A stretch of DNA of 64,000 nucleotides from Streptomyces sp. NBC_01478 (GTDB taxonomy: Bacteria > Actinomycetota > Actinomycetes > Streptomycetales > Streptomycetaceae), in NCBI RefSeq assembly GCF_036227225.1, contig NZ_CP109444.1:3763501-3827500 (forward strand), read 5' to 3'. Shown piece after piece: positions 2,315 to 30,834 of the stretch. Made by a program: the position numbers and the translations under genes. Position 1 is the first letter of the stretch. Each line of letters starts with the position of its first letter. The notes under the pieces were generated by a model, which was not told the origin of the DNA, searched no databases, and saw only the letters and a program-made list of their open reading frames with translations.

Positions 2315-2325
2315 GGGTGCCTTGC

Positions 2326-2425
2326 GTGGTTGCTTGGGCGCGGGTCGGTGGGGGCTAGGCGCGCCCCGCGGCGGAGCCGCATATCGATACTGCCTCGCGC
2401 CCCTTTGGGGCGCGTCCCTCAAAGG
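2326..2425. repeat. Dispersed intergenic palindromic repeat (copy A) with terminator hairpin
   Basis: This gap between convergent genes contains the module GCGGCGGAGCCGCATAT, also found near 10113 and 16118, followed by a perfect hairpin CGCGCCCC-TTT-GGGGCGCG (2396-2414). It lies exactly where transcripts from both sides should end, so it probably acts as a bidirectional terminator. Confidence 0.7.
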
Positions 2426-2429
2426 TGAT

Positions 2430-3164
2430 TCAGCGCTCGACCTTTGTTTTGTAGCCCCTGCCCCACTGCAGGCCCCAGCCGTACAGGCGGTCCAGCTCTG
2501 CCTGGAAGCCGTAGACGAACTTGACCTCTCGGCGGACTACGAGTTCGCCCTTGACGTTCTCGATCATCACGACCGCGCAGGAGCGGGCCTGGGGGTGGCG
2601 TTCGTCGAGGCCTATCTCGATGCGGGGGCCGTTGCTTGGGTAGAGGGTGACGATCGCGTGGGTGCGGTCGAAGGCCGGGGTCTGGTCGTAGATGTAGACG
2701 AAGACCAGGAGGCGCTTGATCTGGTCGCGGTGGTCGAGGTTGACGTACATCGTCTCGCCGGACGCGGAGCCGAAGCGGTCGTCGCCGCTGAGTTTCACGT
2801 ACGGGGGTGCGTTGACGTCGCCGAGGAGGCCGCCGAGGGGCTGGACCACGCCCTTGGTGCCGTCCATGAGTTCGTAGAGGCAGCCCAGGTCGAGGTCCAC
2901 GTTGACCATGCTCTGGCTGTGGCCCATGACCTCCGGCGGCTTGAGCGCCTTGAAGGGGTGGCGCAGCAGGCTGTCGCGCTGGAGGCCGCCGATGTCGGAG
3001 GTCCGCATCCGCCAGGTGAGGTTGACGCGGAGGTTGCCGGTGGCCGCGCCCTGTTTGGTGAGCGAGACCTGGTGGTGCCGTTTGGTCAGTTCTATCGCGT
3101 TGCTGGCCGCGCTGCCCGAGTCGAAGTCGGCCTCGCGCCGCCAGATTCCGTCGAAGAAGCCCAT
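2430..3164 (-). CDS. TerA-like tellurium-resistance family protein
   Basis: A 244-residue protein starting MGFFDGIWRR, with GGGGGCGGGA just before the ATG. The frame is open further upstream but has no better start. It is related to TerD/TerA: NAIELTKRHHQVSLTKQGA matches the first TerD strand with its LTK motif, then come a central insert (LDLGCLYELMDGTKG) typical of TerA-type proteins, DDRFG and ETMYVNLDHRDQIKR, and a terminal segment with FVYGFQAELDRLYGWGLQWG. No membrane segment is visible. It is transcribed the same way as the DUF475 gene upstream but separated from it by a strong hairpin. A role in metal or envelope stress with the other ter proteins is inferred from family and position. 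Confidence 0.75.
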   Translation of the reverse strand: MGFFDGIWRREADFDSGSAASNAIELTKRHHQVSLTKQGAATGNLRVNLTWRMRTSDIGGLQRDSLLRHPFKALKPPEVMGHSQSMVNVDLDLGCLYELMDGTKGVVQPLGGLLGDVNAPPYVKLSGDDRFGSASGETMYVNLDHRDQIKRLLVFVYIYDQTPAFDRTHAIVTLYPSNGPRIEIGLDERHPQARSCAVVMIENVKGELVVRREVKFVYGFQAELDRLYGWGLQWGRGYKTKVER

Positions 3165-3201
3165 TCCCGCCCCCACGTCCACATGACTCACGACAAAGCT
3201 G

Positions 3202-3245
3202 TCGGGGCGGCCGGACAGAGGACTTGTCCTCGACGGCCGCCCCGA
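3202..3245 (-). terminator. Hairpin terminator after the DUF475 gene
   Basis: Perfect 12-bp arms TCGGGGCGGCCG (3202-3213) and CGGCCGCCCCGA (3234-3245), with a second small hairpin AGGAC-TT-GTCCT in the loop. No T-tract follows, as is usual for high-GC actinobacteria. Confidence 0.75.
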
Positions 3246-3273
3246 ACAGAGCGTTCCCTTACCAGGGAGCTTG

Positions 3274-4419
3274 TCACACCCCGGACGAGACCTCAGTCTT
3301 CTCGTCCGAGCCTGCTTTTCCCTCGGCTTCCGCAAGAGCCTTGTTCCGGCGGACCGAGGACCAGAAGGACCAGCCGATCAGGATGACGCCGACCAGGCCG
3401 GTGATGACCTCGTTGATCTGGTACTGGATGGTGACCATGAGGATCACGGCCAGGGCGCCGATCGCGTAGTGCGCGCCGTGCTCCAGGTAGACGTAGTCGT
3501 CGAGCGTGCCCTGGCGGACCAGGTACACCGTCAGGGAGCGGACGTACATCGCGCCGATGCCGAGGCCGAGGGCCATCAGGACGATGTCGTTGGTGATGGC
3601 GAACGCGCCGATCACGCCGTCGAAGGAGAACGAGGCGTCCAGGACTTCCAGGTACAGGAACATGAAGAACGCCGCCTGGCCGGCCAGGACCACCGGCGAG
3701 CGCTGCTTGCCGGTGCGCGCGGCCTCTTCCTCCTCCTCGTGCTCCCGCTCCTCCTCTTCCTCGAGCTTGTCCTCGAAGTAGCCGGAGAGGCCGCCGACGA
3801 TCATGTACGTGATCAGACCCGAGATACCGGCGATCAGGACCGTCTGTGCCTTGTCCGCGTGCGCGCCGCCGTGCTGGTGGGCGTGGGCCGCGAAGGTGAA
3901 GGAGGTGATCAGCAGGACGATCAGCGCGATGCAGACCGACAGCATGTCGACCTTGCCGAGCTTGGCGAGCGGGCGCTCGATCCAGCGCAGCCACTGGATG
4001 TCCCGGTCCTCGAAGATGAAGTCGAGGAAGATCATCAGCAGGAACATGCCGCCGAAGGCCGCGATCGCCGGGTGGGCATCGGTGACCAACTGCTGGTACT
4101 GGTCCTTGTTGTTGAGCGCGAGGTCGACCGCGTCGATCGGGCCGATCTTGGCGGTGACCGCGACGATGACGACGGGGAACACCAGCCGCATGCCGAAGAC
4201 GGCGATCAGGACACCGACCGTCAGGAAGATCTTCTGCCAGAAGGCGGACATCTTCTTCAGGATCCCGGCGTTGACCACCGCGTTGTCGAAGGACAGCGAG
4301 ATCTCCAGGACGGCCAGGATCGCCACGATTCCGAAGGCTTCCCACCCCCCGTAGAAAGCCGCTGCGACGAGGCCGAGCGCGGTGACCGCGAACGACCAGC
4401 CGAAGGTTTTCAGAAGCAC
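3274..4419 (-). CDS. DUF475 / TerC-superfamily integral membrane protein
   Basis: A 381-residue polytopic membrane protein with about 8-9 hydrophobic segments. TerC-superfamily marks are the two acidic membrane motifs EISLSFDNAVVNA (first half) and EVLDASFSFDGVIGAFAIT (second half), which probably bind a metal ion. Between them lies a soluble loop with a very acidic run (EDKLEEEEEREHEEEEE) and a His-rich patch (AAHAHQHGGAH). The family is linked to tellurite resistance and metal export in ter operons; the exact cargo is not known. The start is GTG at 4419 with a weak ribosome site; a TACGAT box ends 10 nt before it, so a leaderless or short-leader mRNA is possible. It sits inside the ter cluster. 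Confidence 0.85.
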   Translation of the reverse strand: MLLKTFGWSFAVTALGLVAAAFYGGWEAFGIVAILAVLEISLSFDNAVVNAGILKKMSAFWQKIFLTVGVLIAVFGMRLVFPVVIVAVTAKIGPIDAVDLALNNKDQYQQLVTDAHPAIAAFGGMFLLMIFLDFIFEDRDIQWLRWIERPLAKLGKVDMLSVCIALIVLLITSFTFAAHAHQHGGAHADKAQTVLIAGISGLITYMIVGGLSGYFEDKLEEEEEREHEEEEEAARTGKQRSPVVLAGQAAFFMFLYLEVLDASFSFDGVIGAFAITNDIVLMALGLGIGAMYVRSLTVYLVRQGTLDDYVYLEHGAHYAIGALAVILMVTIQYQINEVITGLVGVILIGWSFWSSVRRNKALAEAEGKAGSDEKTEVSSGV

Positions 4420-23325: not shown

Positions 23326-23574
23326 ATGGCCGCCACTCAGGAAGAGATCGTCGCCGGTCTCGCCGACATCGTGAACGAGATCGCCGGCATCCCGGTTGAG
23401 GACGTCCAGCTGGACAAGTCCTTCACCGACGACCTGGACGTCGACTCGCTGTCCATGGTCGAGGTCGTCGTCGCCGCCGAAGAGCGCTTCGACGTCAAGA
23501 TCCCCGACGAGGACGTCAAGAACCTCAAGACGGTCGGCGACGCGACCGACTACATCCTCAAGAACCAGGGCTGA
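23326..23574 (+). CDS. acpP: Acyl carrier protein
   Basis: An 82-residue acidic four-helix protein carrying growing acyl chains on a phosphopantetheine arm. The attachment Ser 41 is in DLDVDSLSMVEVV, the canonical DSL motif. The last helix is VKNLKTVGDATDYILKNQG. A GAAGGAG ribosome site stands before the ATG. It is third in the fab operon and is flanked on both sides by hairpins, unlike its neighbours. Confidence 0.98.
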   Translation: MAATQEEIVAGLADIVNEIAGIPVEDVQLDKSFTDDLDVDSLSMVEVVVAAEERFDVKIPDEDVKNLKTVGDATDYILKNQG

Positions 23575-23653
23575 GCCACCTCGTAGGCCCGGACCACCTG
23601 GTCCGAGCCACCTGGTAGGCCCGGCTGCATGGCCCCGCCACCCGGCGGTGGCG
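23575..23653 (+). other. Two hairpins and an 18-bp direct repeat between acpP and fabF
   Basis: GCCACCT(C/G)GTAGGCCCGG occurs at 23575-23592 and 23607-23624. Hairpin 1 is CGGACCA-CC-TGGTCCG (23590-23605). Hairpin 2 is CGCCACC-CGGC-GGTGGCG (23636-23653). They sit inside the operon, so full termination is unlikely; partial termination or 3' stabilisation of acpP is more probable. Confidence 0.6.
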
Positions 23654-23689
23654 CCGCTTAATCCTCGTACCGTTGGAGAGAGAATTCCC

Positions 23690-24961
23690 GTGAGCCCGAC
23701 CAATCGCACCGTGGTCGTCACCGGTATCGGCGCAACCACACCGCTGGGTGGCGACGCAGCCTCGACCTGGGAGGGTCTGATCGCCGGCAAGTCCGGTGTG
23801 AAGCCCCTGGAGCAGGAGTGGGCCGCCGAGCAGGCGGTCCGTATCGCCGCGCCGGCCGCCGTGGACCCCTCCGAGGTCATCCCGCGTCCGCAGGCCCGCC
23901 GCCTGGACCGCTCGGCGCAGTTCGCGCTGATCGCGGCCAAGGAGGCCTGGGCGGACGCCGGCTTCACCGACAAGGCCGGTGAGGACGCGGCGGTCGACCC
24001 CGACCGTCTGGGCACCGTCATCGCCTCCGGCATCGGCGGTGTGACGACCCTGCTCGACCAGTACGACGTGCTGAAGGAGAAGGGCGTCCGCCGCGTCTCC
24101 CCGCACACCGTCCCCATGCTGATGCCGAACGGCCCGTCCGCCAACGTGGGTCTGCTCGTCGGCGCCCGCGCGGGCGTGCACACGCCGGTCTCCGCGTGCG
24201 CCTCCGGCGCCGAGGCCATCGGCTACGCCATCGAGATGATCCGCACCGGCCGCGCCGACGTCGTGGTCGCGGGTGGCACGGAGGCGGCCATCCACCCCCT
24301 CCCCATCGCCGCGTTCGGCAACATGATGGCGATGTCCAAGAACAACGACGACCCACAGGGTGCCTCGCGTCCCTACGACACCGGCCGCGACGGCTTCGTC
24401 CTCGGCGAGGGCGCCGGCGTCCTGGTCCTGGAGTCCGCCGAGCACGCCGCGAAGCGCGGTGCCCGGGTGTACGCCGAGGCGGTCGGGCAGGGCATCTCCG
24501 CCGACGGCCACGACATCGTGCAGCCGGAGCCGGAGGGGCGCGGCATCTCGCAGGCCCTGCGGAACCTGATGGACAACACCGACCTGGACGCGGCGGAGAT
24601 CGTGCACGTGAACGCGCACGCGACGTCGACGCCGGCGGGCGACGTGGCCGAACTGAAGGCGCTGCGCAAGGTGTTCGGCGACGACGCGGACCACATGGCT
24701 GTCTCGGCCACGAAGTCCATGACCGGGCATCTGCTGGGTGGTGCGGGCGGTGTCGAGTCGGTCGCGACCGTGCTCGCGCTGTACAACCGGATCGCTCCGC
24801 CGACCATCAACGTCGAGAACCTCGACCCGGAGGCGGAGGCCAACGCGGACGTCGTTCGCGGCGAGGCTCGTAAGTTGCCGGTCGAGGGACGTATCGCCGC
24901 GCTGAACGACTCGTTCGGGTTCGGTGGGCACAACGTGGTGCTGGCGTTCCGGACGGTCTGA
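23690..24961 (+). CDS. fabF: Beta-ketoacyl-ACP synthase II
   Basis: A 423-residue elongating condensing enzyme. Catalytic Cys 170 is in VSACASGAEAIGYA, the two His are in VNAHATSTPAGD and MTGHLLGGAGG, and the C-terminal GFGGHN loop is present. It starts at GTG 23690 with GGAGAGAG upstream; the much longer open frame to the left overlaps acpP and was rejected. It is the last gene of the fab operon and ends in front of a strong terminator. Confidence 0.97.
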   Translation: MSPTNRTVVVTGIGATTPLGGDAASTWEGLIAGKSGVKPLEQEWAAEQAVRIAAPAAVDPSEVIPRPQARRLDRSAQFALIAAKEAWADAGFTDKAGEDAAVDPDRLGTVIASGIGGVTTLLDQYDVLKEKGVRRVSPHTVPMLMPNGPSANVGLLVGARAGVHTPVSACASGAEAIGYAIEMIRTGRADVVVAGGTEAAIHPLPIAAFGNMMAMSKNNDDPQGASRPYDTGRDGFVLGEGAGVLVLESAEHAAKRGARVYAEAVGQGISADGHDIVQPEPEGRGISQALRNLMDNTDLDAAEIVHVNAHATSTPAGDVAELKALRKVFGDDADHMAVSATKSMTGHLLGGAGGVESVATVLALYNRIAPPTINVENLDPEAEANADVVRGEARKLPVEGRIAALNDSFGFGGHNVVLAFRTV

Positions 24962-24985
24962 ACTCCCTTGCCCGCATGAGGTTTT

Positions 24986-25031
24986 AGGCGGCCTGTCTCT
25001 CTCTTTCACCACCTTGAGAGGCAGGCCGCCT
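24986..25031 (+). terminator. Terminator of the fab operon
   Basis: Arms at 24986-25001 and 25016-25031, 16 bp with a single mismatch (AGGCGGCCTG[T]CTCTC against its inverse). Its right arm ends 3 nt before the -10 box of the next gene. Confidence 0.85.
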
Positions 25032-25033
25032 CC

Positions 25034-25046
25034 TATGCTGGAACGC
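25034..25046 (+). promoter_or_regulatory. -10 box for leaderless caspase-NTPase mRNA
   Basis: TATGCT (25034-25039) ends 7 nt before ATG 25047. The ATG at 25035 lies inside the box. Confidence 0.5.
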
Positions 25047-27671
25047 ATGGGCAAGGGGGGACGGCTCGCGCTGGTCATCGGGTCACAGTGCGAGAGCCTG
25101 GGCCTTGGGAAACACCTGGAGTCCCTGGAGACGGCAGCCGGCGAGCTGGACGAGGCGGTGCGGCGGCCTGCCATCGGCGGCTGCTCCCACGCTCTGCCAG
25201 AGCTCGATGGCCCCTTACTCAACCCAAGCCGGGACAAGCTCAACGGAGCCCTGGTCGACGCGTTCGATCGCGCCGACCGGGAACGCGCAGTCCTGGTCCT
25301 CGCCTATATCGGCCATGGCCTGCGCACAGATGACGAGTACTACGTCCTACCGCGAGATGCCGAGGAAGACCTCGGAGCTCGGATTCATCCCTATCCGCTG
25401 GTCACCGCGATAGGACGCTTCCTCTCCGCGCGCACTCGGCTCCAGGGGCTGATTCTGCTGCTGGACACCTGTGACGCGGGGCAGGGTGCGGTGACCGCGG
25501 CGAAGCGGTGGCTCGTGCTCAACGAGAGGGACATGGACCGCCGCTTCCACCTGCTCACCTCGTCCAGCCTGGAGCCGTCGTACGAGTGCGCGTTCTCCCG
25601 GGAGACCGCGCGCATTCTGCGCCACGGCACCGTTCGCTGCGACCCGCTGCTGTACTGCCGCGACATCCGCGCGAGCGTCGTGGAACGAGACGTCCTGGAG
25701 CACCAGCCGGTCGTGCTGGACTACAACGGCAGCTCCGGGGCCTCCGAACTGTGGCTCGCGCGCAACCAGGCACCCCGCCCGCTTGCCCGGGAGCTGCGGA
25801 ACTTCCAGGCGACACCGGACGTGGACCGGGTGGTGGCCGCCACGACAACGCAGACCGTGACCATGGTGCAAGCGTCGGCAGGCTCCGGAAAGACCACTCT
25901 GCTGACCGCACTGACTCGGCCCGAACTCAGCAAGGACATTCCCGGGGGGTTCATTCACGCTCTGCATGAACTACGGCCGGCCGATGACGTCAACAGCGTG
26001 GCAAGGTCATTGGCCCGCCAACTCCGGACAAGCGTGCCGGGCTTCGCCGACGTCTATGTCGACGGGCCGGACGGAGGCAACAAGCAGTCGTTGCTGAACG
26101 CGTTGGACCAGCTTCACGAAAGGGTGCCGATCGAGCAGCTTTCGTTCCGTATCGCCCTCGACGGCCTCGACCAGTTGCGGCAGTCGGTGCTGCCCGAAAT
26201 CCGCGACCTGGTCACCGAACTGATCTACCGTCAGGGCTATCAGCAGACCCGGTCCATACTCGGCATGCGCGTCCTGCTCTCCGGTCGGCCGGCGGCCGCC
26301 CCGACATGGTGGGAGTTCACGACCGTAGAGCTGTCGGCCGCTCACGAGAACCAGATCACGGCCTATCTGACGAGACGTGGAATCGGAGATTACGTCCACC
26401 GGCACGTGATCGAACGGAGCGGGGGCAACTGGCTGGTGGTCACCCTGCTCGCCGACTGGCTGGAGGACTACGATCTCGACACACTCCCGGACGACACCGA
26501 CGGCACGTACACCCAGCGGCTGCACAAGATCCTGGGCGACGAATCCTGGGAGGACTCGGTCGTCAGAGCCGTCCTGACCGTGCTGACCTCCGCCGCGTCC
26601 GCTACCGGGGCCGTCGCCGTCCCAGAGCCCTTACTCCTCCAGGCTGTGGCCCGTCTCCGCCGTTCCGCCACTCCGAAACTCGTGAAGGGCACCCTGCAAC
26701 GCCTCAGTCGGCTCGTCATCACTCGCCCGCTGGATGATGAGAAGCAGTCCTACGCTTTGTTCCACCCCACGCTGTCCCAGTATCTGGCCTCCGGGAAAGC
26801 GCGTCCCGGGGCGGAGTTCGGCGTGGACGTCGCAGCCGGCCACAGAGCCTTGGGCCAAGCGCTGCGCGAACTCGCTCCCCGAGGGAGGCAGATCGACGGA
26901 GACCCTCTCTACGACTATGCCGCCGAGGCGGAGGCCACTCACTTCTGGGAGCAGGACGACCCCAACGGAGTGGTGCAGTCTCTGGTCGACCGGGTTTCCG
27001 CAGTACCCGAGACCAATCTCCTGCGCTGGTCGAGCTGGCTCGTCCGGTTCAAGAAGACGTTGGGACCTTACGACCTCGCTGTCCTCAACGCGCAGGGAGG
27101 CGTCGCCCACTGGACCGAGATGTGCGGCCATCACGCCACCGCACGGAAGCTCTACGAGGAACTCGCCGCCGACTGCCAGGACGCTCTGGACCCTCGGCGT
27201 CCGAACGCCTCCCACCATCCTGACGCCGAGGAGATCCTCCAAGTCGGTGCGCTCGCCGCGGACTGGTTGGGCGTTGACGATCCCGCCATGGCGTGCCTCC
27301 TCTACCTCAAACTGGAGAAGGAATGTGGGCGCGTCCTGGGCCCGGAGCACTTGGTCACGCTGACCACCCGAAACAACGCCGCTTCCTGGATGCGCCAGGC
27401 CGGCGACCCTGCCCGAGCCCTGTTCCGGTTTCGCACGCTCGTGGCGGACATCGAGCGAATCCCGGGATTATCGGGCAGCCACCTTCAGCTCACAGCGCGC
27501 AACGGCGTCGCGACGTGTCTGAACGCGACCGGCAAGGTCACCGAGGCTCTCGCGAGTTGGGGCACACTGCTCGTGGAGATCGAGCGGCACCAAGGAGAGG
27601 ACGCCGCCCTCGCAGGGAACGTGCGCGAGAGCATGTTCCAGGTGCTCCGTCCCCTGGTCACGGCCAACTGA
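25047..27671 (+). CDS. Caspase-like protease / STAND NTPase fusion
   Basis: An 874-residue protein. Residues 1-235 are a caspase-fold peptidase: RLALVIGSQC first strand, His 90 in LAYIGHGLRTDDEYYVLP, Cys 142 in LLLDTCDAGQGA. Residues about 255-620 are a STAND/NACHT-type NTPase with Walker A QASAGSGKTTLL (275-286), Walker B FRIALDGLDQL, an LSGRP sensor-like motif and the winged-helix sequence LFHPTLSQYLASG. The rest (about 640-874) is helical, TPR-like, the probable sensor. By family analogy a ligand binds the C-terminus, the NTPase oligomerises, and the protease is switched on. Three in-frame TTA codons (57, 529, 808) imply need for bldA tRNA. GC is lower than in the flanking genes. It is convergent with a hydrolase. 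Confidence 0.85.
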   Translation: MGKGGRLALVIGSQCESLGLGKHLESLETAAGELDEAVRRPAIGGCSHALPELDGPLLNPSRDKLNGALVDAFDRADRERAVLVLAYIGHGLRTDDEYYVLPRDAEEDLGARIHPYPLVTAIGRFLSARTRLQGLILLLDTCDAGQGAVTAAKRWLVLNERDMDRRFHLLTSSSLEPSYECAFSRETARILRHGTVRCDPLLYCRDIRASVVERDVLEHQPVVLDYNGSSGASELWLARNQAPRPLARELRNFQATPDVDRVVAATTTQTVTMVQASAGSGKTTLLTALTRPELSKDIPGGFIHALHELRPADDVNSVARSLARQLRTSVPGFADVYVDGPDGGNKQSLLNALDQLHERVPIEQLSFRIALDGLDQLRQSVLPEIRDLVTELIYRQGYQQTRSILGMRVLLSGRPAAAPTWWEFTTVELSAAHENQITAYLTRRGIGDYVHRHVIERSGGNWLVVTLLADWLEDYDLDTLPDDTDGTYTQRLHKILGDESWEDSVVRAVLTVLTSAASATGAVAVPEPLLLQAVARLRRSATPKLVKGTLQRLSRLVITRPLDDEKQSYALFHPTLSQYLASGKARPGAEFGVDVAAGHRALGQALRELAPRGRQIDGDPLYDYAAEAEATHFWEQDDPNGVVQSLVDRVSAVPETNLLRWSSWLVRFKKTLGPYDLAVLNAQGGVAHWTEMCGHHATARKLYEELAADCQDALDPRRPNASHHPDAEEILQVGALAADWLGVDDPAMACLLYLKLEKECGRVLGPEHLVTLTTRNNAASWMRQAGDPARALFRFRTLVADIERIPGLSGSHLQLTARNGVATCLNATGKVTEALASWGTLLVEIERHQGEDAALAGNVRESMFQVLRPLVTAN

Positions 27672-27678
27672 CGTCCGC

Positions 27679-28608
27679 CTACCGGGGCTCCAGAGTCTCT
27701 CGAACCGCCTGTCCCGTCTGCCGCTTCGTCAGGTATGCCTGGGCGCTGTGCGGGTCGTCCTCACCGTTGTCCAGCGTCCAGTCCGACTCAAGAACGCCAC
27801 GAGGATCGGCGAAGCGTTTGGCGAGGTCCGGCTCCGCCGCGATCACATCGTCCTTGTCGGCAAGGTTGACCCACCGCCCCACCAGCTCAGGGACCTGATG
27901 TTCACCTTCCAACCGGTCGTGGACGAGTGTCCGCAGGCCGAGCGGGGAACCGAGAGTCAGCAGCAGCGGAAGCTCTCCCTCCAAGCGGAGAGCAGCCTCG
28001 TACGCGGCCACCGACCCGAGAGAGTGCCCCACCAGGATTCTCGTCTCGGGACCGATCAGGTCGGCGATCCGCTGCTGCACTTCCTCGTATACGGAGGGTT
28101 CGGTCATGTAGCGCGTGACCTGGACCAAGGACTTGTTGACGAAGCGCTGCGCGAAACCCATGCCCAGCCGGCTGAACCACTTGAGCCGAGCGAGCCCGTT
28201 CACCGCCGCCCGTCCCGCCGACCTGCGGCCCTGCCGCCCTTCGTCTCCGCCCTCGATGTCGTGGAGGACCGTCCGCGCGATACGCCGGTCACCGGGCTCG
28301 GGAGCTCGGTCGCGCGCGTTACGAAGCCATTCGAGAGCCAGGGCGTCGGTGAGTTCCCGCTGGGTCTCGGTGAGTTCGGCCGGATCCTCAGCAGCTCCTT
28401 GAGCCCCCTTCTGCAGAAAGACATCGCCGTAGAACGCCATACGGGATTCCAGCCGACCCGGTCGGGCACTGCGCCACAATGCGTCGGCAAGCCCTGCACC
28501 GCCGGCAGTTCGCACCCCGCCGGCCAAGTCGGGCAGCCATTCCTTTTCCAGGGTGTCGGCCGACTTCTGCTCCTGAGCGATTCCGTGCACCAGGACGATC
28601 TCCGCCAT
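27679..28608 (-). CDS. Alpha/beta hydrolase (lipase/esterase-like) paired with the caspase gene
   Basis: A 309-residue protein starting MAEIVLVHGIAQEQKSADTL behind GAGGGGGCGGG. The oxyanion segment is LVHGIAQ, the nucleophile elbow ILVGHSLGSVAAYEA (Ser 196), a candidate Asp is in NLADKDDVIA (251-253) and His 287 in DPHSAQAYL. A charged loop (about 100-135) is inserted before the elbow and may form a lid. There is no signal peptide, so it is cytoplasmic. Its stop lies 7 bp from the caspase-gene stop. It could be a second effector, a proenzyme cleaved by the caspase, or an unrelated neighbour. Confidence 0.78.
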   Translation of the reverse strand: MAEIVLVHGIAQEQKSADTLEKEWLPDLAGGVRTAGGAGLADALWRSARPGRLESRMAFYGDVFLQKGAQGAAEDPAELTETQRELTDALALEWLRNARDRAPEPGDRRIARTVLHDIEGGDEGRQGRRSAGRAAVNGLARLKWFSRLGMGFAQRFVNKSLVQVTRYMTEPSVYEEVQQRIADLIGPETRILVGHSLGSVAAYEAALRLEGELPLLLTLGSPLGLRTLVHDRLEGEHQVPELVGRWVNLADKDDVIAAEPDLAKRFADPRGVLESDWTLDNGEDDPHSAQAYLTKRQTGQAVRETLEPR

Positions 28609-28724: not shown

Positions 28725-29219
28725 CTAGACCACCTGGTGCAGCCAGCGCACCGGTGCGCCCTCGCCCGCGTACCGGAACGGCTCCAACTCGTCGTCCCAG
28801 GGCTTGCCGAGGAGCTTGGCGATCTCGGACTCCAGGTTGGTCTCGCCCTGTTGGGAGCGGGTGAGCGCCGCGCGGAGGCGGTCCTCCGGGATCAGGATGT
28901 CGCCGTGGATGCCGGTGACGGCGTGGAAGATGCCCAGGTCGGGGGTGCAGCTATAGCGCTCGCCCTCGGCGGTGGGGCAGGGCTCGGCAGTGACCTCGAA
29001 GCGGAGGAGGTGCCAGCCGCGGAGGGCCGACGCCAGCTTGGACGCCGTTCCTACCTCTGCCTGCCAGGAGAATTCGGAGCGCCAGGTTCCGGGGGCGGCG
29101 GGCTGGCGGATCCAGTCGAGGCTGACGCGTGTGCCGAGCACCCCGGCGACGGCCCACTCGACGTGCGGGCACAGCGCGCGCGGCGCGGAGTGCACGTACA
29201 GAACTCCACGTGTCGTCAC
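28725..29219 (-). CDS. DUF3145 family protein
   Basis: A 164-residue cytoplasmic protein conserved in actinobacteria, starting at GTG 29219 with GGAGGTCC upstream (VTTRGVLYVHSAPRALCPHV). Further signatures are WIRQPAAPGTWRSEFSW, GWHLLRFEVTAEPC, FHAVTGIHGDILIPEDRLR and the terminal GAPVRWLHQVV. The open frame continues 180 bp upstream but without conserved sequence. Function is not known; from memory it normally lies next to fabF, so the caspase/hydrolase pair looks like an insertion between the two. Confidence 0.85.
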   Translation of the reverse strand: MTTRGVLYVHSAPRALCPHVEWAVAGVLGTRVSLDWIRQPAAPGTWRSEFSWQAEVGTASKLASALRGWHLLRFEVTAEPCPTAEGERYSCTPDLGIFHAVTGIHGDILIPEDRLRAALTRSQQGETNLESEIAKLLGKPWDDELEPFRYAGEGAPVRWLHQVV

Positions 29220-29439
29220 CGGGACCTCCGGACAGAGCGGGGCATCTTGCAGACTGGCGAACGGCGGCGGCAGGGCAGCCACGTTGAGGGCGAGGCTACC
29301 GTGCGGCGGCGCGCGGAGTGTGACGTACCGTCCGTCCTGGTACCAGGAAACGCTGCCATTCACCCATGGGGACGCTTGTACGGGGGTGTGCCGTTGCATC
29401 GGGCGGATGCGGAACTCTGGCGCGTTGTCAGTTGGTTGT

Positions 29440-29510
29440 TGTGATGGGTTGAGACCGTTGTGACTCCTCCACCCCCCAATCGGGGTGGCTTCTCGCTATG
29501 CCTGGTTGGC
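29440..29510 (-). ncRNA. Candidate omega RNA (reRNA) at the right end of the TnpB element
   Basis: Downstream of tnpB the minus strand holds a 7-bp hairpin CCACCCC/GGGGTGG (29488-29469), then GGAGGAGTCAC ending at 29460, which resembles the right-end cleavage tail (TTCAC) of ISDra2-type elements. In that family the omega RNA scaffold overlaps the 3' end of tnpB and the guide is the flank just outside. The guide would begin AACGGTCTCAACCC from 29459 leftward. Limits are estimates. Confidence 0.5.
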
Positions 29511-30710
29511 GTCGCGACGGACCAGCCCGGCCCGTAAAACGTTGGTCGCTCCGACGACGTCGGCGTGTGCCCGGTGGCCGCACGAGAGGCAGTGGAACTT
29601 CTCCTGGGTGGGCCGGTTCTCCTTGGCGGTGTGCCCGCATTCGGGGCACATGCGGGAGGTGTTGCGGGGGTCCACGGCCGTTACTTCCCGCCCGGCGCTT
29701 TCAGCCTTTGCGTTCAGAATCGCTAGGAACACCCCCCAACCGGCGTCAGCGATCGAACGGTTCAGCCCGGCCTTGCTCGCGGCCCCGTTCGGCAGGAAAC
29801 CGCCCGGCTTCTCGGGGTCCGGCTTCGGGGCGGGAGCCTTGCTCATGTTGCGGATCTTGAGGTCTTCGTGCGCGATGAAGTCGTGCTCACGAACCAGGCC
29901 GAGCGCGGTCTTGTGCGCGTGGTCGAGCCGCTGGCGGCGTACCTTGCCGTGGAGCTTGGCGACGTTGTCCACAGCGTGCTGATGGTTGCGGGTACGGTCC
30001 TTGGCCCTGCGGCGCGGAAAGCGGCTCAGGGCCTGCTGCGCGACTTCGAGCTTTGCGGCCGCCTTGCGCGCGTGGCGCGGGTTGGCGATGTGCCCGCCGT
30101 TGGAATCAGTGAGGAACGAGGCAATACCGAGGTCGATGCCGACTACTGAGCCGGTCGCGGGCAGCGGCTCAGGCCGGCGCTGCTCGGCGGTCAGCACGAC
30201 AAACCACTTACGGCCCTCGCGCTTGACCGACACGGTCTTGACCTTGCCGACCACCGCGCGGTGCTGGTTGACCTTGACGTGCCCGACGCCCTGGAAGCGG
30301 ACCCGGGTCGCGGGGTCGTGCGGAGTGGAGTCCCACCGGCAGCCGTCCCCGTCCTTCGGGAAGTCCACCGTGACGAACCGGTTCACCCCACGGAAGCGCG
30401 GGTACCCGGGCCTGTCCCCGGCTTTGATCCGACGGAAGAACGCGGTGAACGCCTTGTCCAACCGGCGCAATGTCGCCTGCTGCGAGGAGAAGGACCAGCG
30501 CCCCTGCCGCTCGGGGTCAAAAGCCCGGATGTCCTTGAGTTGTCCGGACTGCTGCCCGTACTTCACGCTCGTCTTCGAGGCGTGTCGGTAGGCGTCGCGA
30601 CGTTCCTGCAAGGCAGCGTTGTAGAGGGAGCAGTGATCGCTCAGCATCTCGCTCAGCGCGACTTGCTGGCCCACGGTGGGCCGCATGAGGAACTTGTACG
30701 CACGGATCAT
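29496..30710 (-). CDS. tnpB: TnpB RNA-guided nuclease (IS605/OrfB family)
   Basis: A 404-residue, full-length OrfB/TnpB. The N-terminal wedge/HTH part is MIRAYKFLMRPTVGQQVALS to about 185. The RuvC-like nuclease has all three acidic residues: Asp 193 in VVGIDLGIASFLT, Glu 282 in FIAHEDLKIRNMS, Asp 384 in HADVVGATN. The zinc finger has four Cys (355 and 358 in CPECG, 374 and 377 in CLSCG). It is expected to cut DNA next to a short TAM, guided by omega RNA from its 3' end. The ATG at 30710 follows GGGGGTGGG; the longer open frame to 31091 runs through the tnpA relic and was rejected. Confidence 0.93.
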   Translation of the reverse strand: MIRAYKFLMRPTVGQQVALSEMLSDHCSLYNAALQERRDAYRHASKTSVKYGQQSGQLKDIRAFDPERQGRWSFSSQQATLRRLDKAFTAFFRRIKAGDRPGYPRFRGVNRFVTVDFPKDGDGCRWDSTPHDPATRVRFQGVGHVKVNQHRAVVGKVKTVSVKREGRKWFVVLTAEQRRPEPLPATGSVVGIDLGIASFLTDSNGGHIANPRHARKAAAKLEVAQQALSRFPRRRAKDRTRNHQHAVDNVAKLHGKVRRQRLDHAHKTALGLVREHDFIAHEDLKIRNMSKAPAPKPDPEKPGGFLPNGAASKAGLNRSIADAGWGVFLAILNAKAESAGREVTAVDPRNTSRMCPECGHTAKENRPTQEKFHCLSCGHRAHADVVGATNVLRAGLVRRDANQA

Positions 30711-30732
30711 CCAGCCCACCCCCTTCCGGTCG

Positions 30733-30746
30733 AAATTCTCGAATTT
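30733..30746. repeat. AT-rich palindrome AAATTC-TC-GAATTT
   Basis: A perfect 6-bp palindrome at the junction between tnpB and the tnpA relic, unusually AT-rich for this chromosome. Confidence 0.4.
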
Positions 30747-30834
30747 ATTACACTTGGTGTTTGTTACCAAGTACCGGCGTGCAGTCCTCAACGACGACAT
30801 GCTGACACGCTGCGAAGAGATCATGCGGAACGTG
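30736..30834 (+). pseudogene. Relic of IS200-type transposase tnpA
   Basis: The frame reads FSNLLHLVFVTKYRRAVLND then DMLTRCEEIMRNV, which matches residues about 14-46 of Y1 transposases (typical HLVFVTKYRR and MLTRCEEIMR). The catalytic HUH and Tyr parts are absent, and there is no start codon of its own. It has two adjacent TTA leucine codons, rare in this genome. Confidence 0.75.

Follow-up and report, generated by a model that had tools for sequence, protein, structure and literature searches.

The stretch of DNA studied here (the window) comprises 64,000 nucleotides from the genome of Streptomyces sp. NBC_01478 (12.1 Mb in one contig; NZ_CP109444.1, positions 3,763,501 to 3,827,500). Between fabF and the gene for a DUF3145 protein lies a cassette of two open reading frames (ORFs), P0001 and P0002, placed stop to stop on opposite strands with a 7 bp gap. 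P0001 codes for an 874-amino acid protein in which a caspase-fold domain is fused to a STAND nucleoside triphosphatase (NTPase) region and to C-terminal TPR repeats; P0002 codes for a putative alpha/beta-hydrolase of 309 amino acids. A preliminary reading of the DNA letters (the original prediction) had singled out this tail-to-tail pair, with correct coordinates, as a candidate for an undescribed defence system.

Two putative enzymes inserted in the fatty-acid locus

The N-terminal part of P0001 carries the histidine and the cysteine named in the original prediction, His90 in an HG context and Cys142 in a DxC (DTC) context together with Asp140, in keeping with a caspase-like His-Cys dyad. Its match to the NCBIfam model NF047832 is weak (33.8 bits; cut-off, 140), and P0001 gave no match to Pfam C14, although several relatives do. 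Farther along the protein, a P-loop with Walker A (ASAGSGKT, residues 276-283) and Walker B-like (LDGLDQ, residues 371-376) motifs, followed by C-terminal repeats, identifies P0001 as a STAND NTPase, as had been proposed, and the Pfam NPHP3_N match exceeds its threshold (26.7 bits; cut-off, 24.8). Matches to AAA_16, NACHT, nSTAND1 and nSTAND_NTPase5 all fell below their cut-offs, so that the assignment stops short of a clade within STAND. The helical C-terminus anticipated at the outset turned out to be made of TPR repeats (TPR_12, 35.5 bits; cut-off, 30.1). Residues 665-849 also align in part with the FxSxx_TPR model NF040586, at 42.7 bits for a cut-off of 300 and over the TPR part alone; P0001 was rejected as the TPR protein of an FxSxx-COOH system.

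P0002 displays an oxyanion HG (H8-G9), a nucleophile motif GHSLGS containing Ser196, then Asp254 and His287. Ser196 and His287 had been recognized in the original prediction; Asp254 supplies the third member of the triad, and all three residues are invariant across a 23-row hydrolase alignment. Because the Pfam matches of P0002 lie below cut-off (Abhydrolase_6, E 2.8e-4), an alpha/beta-hydrolase fold was presumed from the motifs and their order.

Comparison with other genomes shows that the caspase-hydrolase cassette has been inserted into the fatty-acid locus. Both genes have a G+C content of 66.5%, lower, as had been noticed, than that of fabF (71.6%), the DUF3145 gene (70.5%) and the window as a whole (69.2%). 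The G+C content at third codon positions is likewise 0.82 and 0.77 in the two cassette genes versus 0.88-0.94 in fabF, the DUF3145 gene and fabH. The adjacency of fabF and DUF3145 in other genomes, as stated in the original prediction, was borne out. DUF3145 is present in 59 of the 61 genomes searched, and fabF falls inside the examined flank of DUF3145 in 28 of 29 other loci (30 were returned, one being the window itself), with L111 as the sole exception. The spacer between the two genes measures 64-440 bp in 23 of these 28 relatives and 1.0-1.16 kb in the other five; it reaches 3,763 bp in the window and only 141 bp in L090, a close relative with a 98% identical fabF. The same cassette follows fabF in the same orientation in Streptomyces sp. 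SID12501 (L071), where the contig stops within the hydrolase gene. L071 keeps the ATG at position 25047 and its surrounding bases, which supports this codon as the start of P0001, and an inverted repeat resembling the window hairpin (Table 1) was read by eye at the equivalent site. Reading the insertion junctions by eye revealed no target-site repeat, no dedicated repeat search having been made, and a promoter scan found no canonical sigma-70 promoter upstream of the cassette.

Table 1. Coordinates of the cassette and of the features that border it (window numbering).
Feature	Position	Strand	Evidence or remark
fabF, left border of insertion	23537..24961	+	ketoacyl-synt domains (Pfam); extent as scanned, true start inside
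Hairpin with 16-bp stem, fabF stop to caspase start; probable fabF terminator	24986..25031	+	RNA fold of 24965-25050: -46 kcal/mol, z -6.0
P0001, caspase-STAND-TPR protein, 874 amino acids	25047..27671	+	ORF; NF047832, NPHP3_N and TPR_12 matches
Caspase-fold domain, residues 1-245	25047..25781	+	conserved H90 (codon 25314-25316), D140, C142 (codon 25470-25472)
STAND-like P-loop NTPase region, residues 246-560, approximate borders	25782..26726	+	NPHP3_N above cut-off; motif positions
TPR repeats at the C-terminus (residues 661-874), a proposed sensor	27027..27668	+	TPR_12 35.5 bits; FxSxx_TPR partial match
P0002, alpha/beta-hydrolase, 309 amino acids; codons S196 28023-28021, D254 27849-27847, H287 27750-27748	27679..28608	-	
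DUF3145 gene, right border of insertion	28725..29399	-	PF11343, E 1.6e-72

The five longer spacers (L106, L108, L112, L113 and L114) seemingly hold another gene; in L114, the first residues of the spacer ORF resemble, by eye, an NAD-binding dehydrogenase. Since 5 of 28 relatives are in this situation, the fabF-DUF3145 spot may take up cargo repeatedly. Adjoining DUF3145 in the window is a TnpB-family gene (29496-30834, reverse strand; NF040570, 252.8 bits for a cut-off of 100), and the next ORF, that of a GDSL lipase, begins in frame with a short fragment of a Y1 transposase (TnpA; Y1_Tnp positions 6-35 of 121). The TnpB gene and the Y1 fragment are an IS200/IS605-type remnant.

Conservation and divergence of the pair

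Relatives of P0002 were sought in the genus of the window (295 genomes). They were found in 99 genomes including its own (98 of the 294 others), at 122 places. All were examined except the window's own locus and one terminal-repeat copy in genome G049, and the resulting 120 places still include some copies from the same genome (e.g., two places of G090). Loci were searched with profiles built from the first of them, and a caspase domain was scored as adjacent when located at most 400 bp from the hydrolase. This was the case in 94 of the 120 places (84 of the first 100 and 10 of the weaker 20). For hydrolases scoring at least 240 bits among the first 100, the proportion rose to 70 of 73. The three exceptions are L124, whose caspase lies 2 kb off, L180, with a broken caspase at 4 kb, and L125, where none was seen in 17 kb and the neighbours code for an Exo_endo_phos-jacalin protein and a TetR regulator. 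Conversely, caspase domains matched by P0001 at 10 places in 9 other genomes of the genus were adjoined by the hydrolase in all 10 instances. Among loci from named genomes, adjacency was observed in 29 of 31, and the remaining two belong to short contigs (3.8 and 4.0 kb). Plasmids carry the pair as well. In all six plasmid records examined, out of seven (the seventh, with identical coordinates, comes from a sister strain), a caspase-profile match occurs directly downstream, including in the cyanobacterium Leptolyngbya boryana. The His-Cys motif was recovered by text pattern in five of the six, and the sixth, L227, keeps both residues with HG changed to HA. Neighbours of the plasmid pairs include recombinases, insertion sequence elements and an AbiEi-type antitoxin.

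The frequency of caspase domains was estimated with a related but different model, which serves as an order-of-magnitude control: 217 matches in 521 Mb from 61 genomes, or 0.42 per Mb, would place a caspase within 17 kb of a hydrolase by chance in about 0.7% of cases. With 94 of 120 observed within 400 bp, the possibility that the two genes are chance neighbours was rejected. Thus, the caspase and hydrolase genes constitute a conserved unit far beyond chance, and the suspicion that the hydrolase might occur mostly without the caspase gene did not materialize. Proteins aligning with P0001 over most of its length were found in just 2 of the 294 other genomes (E<=1e-10), and phage records yielded no match.

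Several loci presented features of their own. Eight of the weaker hydrolases (L197, L212, L216, L217, L235, L237, L241 and L247) possibly represent a further class: their caspase domain is found on the opposite strand at a distance of about 1.1-1.7 kb, perhaps beyond an intervening gene. In two differently named Streptomyces (L075 and L076), the pair and its left flank are 98.5% identical over 8 kb while the right flanks are dissimilar, the mark of a recent transfer or of a rearrangement next to the pair. In L066 a glycosyltransferase gene (2325-3536) begins 3 bases past the caspase gene; it matches the GT4-conflict model PF20706 (37.3 bits; cut-off, 26), general GT4 models scoring higher, and ORFs of comparable size occupy this position in several related loci.

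The 116 adjacent pairs (two of them counted twice, L007=L121 and L008=L123) were sorted by the domain that follows the caspase: WD40 in 54, TPR in 27, VMAP in 25 and others in 10. These calls, like those for the P-loop, were made with home-made profiles and a text pattern that may miss variants, and were checked with Pfam on samples. Gene arrangement varies with the class. All 25 VMAP pairs have the hydrolase followed by the caspase in one direction, with a MoxR gene (home-made model) nearby in 22; 52 of the 54 WD40 pairs are also unidirectional, in either gene order. The 25 distinct TPR pairs all lie on opposite strands, 23 of them divergent and two, the window and L071, convergent. Outside the VMAP class, a MoxR gene of the VMAP-associated kind was seen at two loci (L194 and L201), in flanks of varying length.

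Subtracting from the 116 pairs the duplicates, three with a partner too short (the hydrolase of L071 and L160, the caspase of L194) and two identical to pairs from another collection (L146=L079, L155=L084) left 109 that could be aligned. All 109 caspases keep H90, D140 and C142, and all 109 hydrolases keep S196, D254 and H287. The P-loop text pattern, however, is absent from 6 of 24 TPR, 13 of 51 WD40, 3 of 9 other and all 25 VMAP partners; the six in the TPR class (L066, L067, L069, L073, L074 and L086) lack the Walker A pattern and retain the caspase dyad. Because the active sites are intact throughout while the P-loop pattern is often missing, the two catalytic activities are what is retained in the pair. 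In P0001-type proteins, mean identity among 15 members of the TPR class is 62% for the caspase versus 41% for the STAND region, 41% for the linker (residues 561-660) and 44% for the TPR part, so that the caspase is the constrained portion. The two partners also diverge in step. Their pairwise distances correlate with r 0.887 over the 109 pairs (best of 2,000 permutations, 0.077), and within classes the values are 0.967 (TPR), 0.877 (WD40) and 0.857 (VMAP).

A hydrolase tree (110 rows, the 109 plus L071; quick search, LG+G4, several long branches) placed the VMAP class on one side of a branch with a Shimodaira-Hasegawa-like approximate likelihood ratio test (SH-aLRT) support of 100, and the VMAP and TPR classes together with a support of 95. 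The TPR class, found in several genera, requires one change on this tree, with a support of just 30. The window pair belongs to a stand-alone STAND-TPR class, beside the WD40 class, and is thus kin to the VMAP pair, whichever of the two arose first. One TPR locus, L074, is from a strain named Rhodococcus rhodnii NRRL B-16535; it shares 80-86% DNA identity over about 12 kb with Kibdelosporangium L069 and is nested in that group, so the strain is probably mislabelled.

A putative death module and its alternatives

We give even chances to the pair being a stand-alone two-gene module for immunity or programmed death in which the caspase switches on the hydrolase. With repeats, NTPase and caspase, P0001 has the make-up of an apoptosome plus a caspase in a single chain, and we infer the following course of events. 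In the resting cell, the STAND NTPase part would keep P0001 off, with the TPR region acting as sensor. Phage products or phage-caused damage are the most likely triggers; their binding would lead the NTPase region to assemble in an apoptosome-like manner, within one polypeptide. The clustered caspase domains would then turn active and cleave a target, preferably P0002, and the freed hydrolase would attack membrane lipids or some other essential ester, causing the infected cell to die or cease growth. Since the hydrolase accompanies the caspase almost without exception, it is probably the substrate or the partner of the latter. In metacaspases, the position equivalent to D140, before the cysteine, helps select basic residues; since D140 precedes C142 in P0001, cleavage would be expected after Arg or Lys. 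As for the site of action, TPR-class hydrolases have 171-189 residues between the oxyanion HG and the nucleophile, more than simple alpha/beta-hydrolases do. A stretch of this unusual length could accommodate a gate open to proteolysis, and residues 9-196 of P0002 could play this role. Hydrolysis of membrane lipids as the last step is a guess based on the hydrolase fold and on the accessible text of PMC8195603, which remarks that membrane lipids are the target of alpha/beta-hydrolases in systems of this type.

A number of observations weigh against this model. The correlation of distances includes a contribution from shared descent. Twenty-six of the 120 places lack an adjacent caspase; most have distant hydrolases, 15 showing no caspase at threshold in the stretch examined and 11 having one farther away. 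The weak family matches of P0002 give no substrate, and hydropathy revealed a clear transmembrane segment in neither protein. The hydrolase alignment, inspected by eye, showed no conserved cleavage site and a variable stretch before S196; TPR-class hydrolases, unlike those of the WD40 class, repeatedly have a basic residue within G-x-R-[AS], but the signal is too weak to support a claim. The argument for a sensor is weakened by the TPR part not being the least conserved among the 15 TPR-class proteins. Between P0001 and L071, a close pair, it does look the fastest-evolving (45% identity versus 65% for the caspase, 54% for the STAND region and 64% for the linker), in keeping with a changing sensor, and this is true of that pair only. 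Finally, the nearby genes of the window are housekeeping genes rather than a defence island, and PADLOC-DB 2.0.0 (2023) returned P-loop-level matches alone for P0001 and none for P0002.

The roles might be reversed, the caspase being the executioner through broad proteolysis and the hydrolase acting upstream, or as a brake, by making or removing an acyl or ester signal on which the caspase threshold depends. With the two active sites conserved to the same degree, genomic data do not tell which enzyme acts first. In all 25 distinct TPR-class loci, moreover, the hydrolase gene faces the other way from the caspase gene and would thus be expressed separately, as a regulator could be. We nevertheless regard this scheme as rather unlikely: the VMAP and most WD40 loci are unidirectional with short gaps and mark no special regulatory role, and activation of partner enzymes by a caspase has a tested precedent (PMC12799240, in the text accessible). 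Less probable still is a module for programmed lysis or development of filamentous bacteria, such as hyphal turnover or sporulation, not chiefly antiviral. The named hosts are nearly all actinomycetes, besides the plasmid-bearing cyanobacterium, the P0001 and P0002 genome searches being those of the window's genus, and the part of PMC7159879 available stresses a multicellular habit for related systems. A developmental gene, on the other hand, would be expected to be widespread, whereas presence is patchy (2 of the 294 other genomes for P0001-like and 98 for P0002-like proteins). The pair moreover resides on plasmids and diverges faster than fabF and fabH; in L071, the hydrolase is 77% identical over the 184 residues available, as compared to 90% for fabF and 95% for fabH.

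On a slightly more tentative note, one catalytic pair mounted on at least three sensor scaffolds (VMAP ternary, STAND-WD40 and STAND-TPR) in two phyla could form a portable death switch, in which the caspase opens a lipase-like executioner by proteolysis. The stand-alone STAND-TPR and STAND-WD40 forms would then be a new anti-phage type, equivalent in bacteria to the chain of apoptosome, caspase and executioner, the final position being taken by a hydrolase. The findings suggest that the hydrolase-caspase pair forms a conserved core to which different sensor scaffolds can be attached. Whether the caspase switches on the hydrolase is a question whose answer would explain a large group of actinobacterial conflict genes, and the two-gene form without a MoxR neighbour offers the simplest version for testing.

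Comparison with known systems

The closest parallel is provided by the VMAP/MoxR/vWA ternary systems. According to the accessible text of Kaur et al. 2020, eLife (PMC7159879), VMAP caspases always neighbour an alpha/beta-hydrolase in these systems; caspases and a related hydrolase are also listed as effectors of GAP1-N1 systems, and the comparison with the apoptosome is made for related systems. A related hydrolase and a related N-terminal caspase thus occur in neighbouring genes in both settings, and 25 VMAP-fused caspases adjoin such a hydrolase in our survey, which began from the hydrolases. The window pair differs in having a caspase followed by STAND-TPR where the ternary systems have VMAP, in lacking a MoxR neighbour, and in being on convergent opposite strands, not in an operon. 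It is very improbable that it represents a decayed or trans-acting part of such a ternary system: although VMAP- and TPR-class hydrolases share one side of a tree branch, the active sites are intact, the TPR class spans several genera, P0001 has no VMAP match at E<=1, the home-made MoxR model has none in the 64-kb window, and VMAP-M2, detected in 3 of 3 control genomes, was not found in the host genome.

Other resemblances are more distant. The EACC1-caspase systems, as described in the available part of PMC7159879, also consist of two genes, with an N-terminal caspase and variable domains, possibly STAND or repeats; their partner, however, is the membrane protein EACC1 and not an alpha/beta-hydrolase. 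EACC1 has three matches in the host genome and none in the window, and with NF047832 far below its cut-off as well (33.8 versus 140 bits), an EACC1 system was rejected. In Canu (PMC12799240, accessible text), a caspase gene adjoins that of a separately encoded enzyme, a pro-nuclease that the caspase activates; this is a precedent for caspase-activated effectors, activation of a pro-enzyme by a paired protease being shown for nucleases. The Canu effector is a metallo-beta-lactamase-type nuclease accompanied by an Ig-like domain, unlike the window pair, which has no Pfam match to either. The CARD-NLR-like LypABC system (PMC13236601, accessible text) shares a STAND-type ATPase and peptidases that control cell lysis; it has a trypsin-like peptidase and a CARD-like domain where P0001 has caspase and TPR. 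A PDB sequence search returned nothing convincing.

In the literature within reach, subscription papers, preprints and supplements being largely beyond the search, the pairing is reported only by Kaur et al. 2020, and no description of stand-alone STAND-TPR or STAND-WD40 forms was found. The claim of an undescribed system is therefore too strong: the pairing had already been predicted for VMAP systems, and it is the stand-alone two-gene form that appears to be a new variant.

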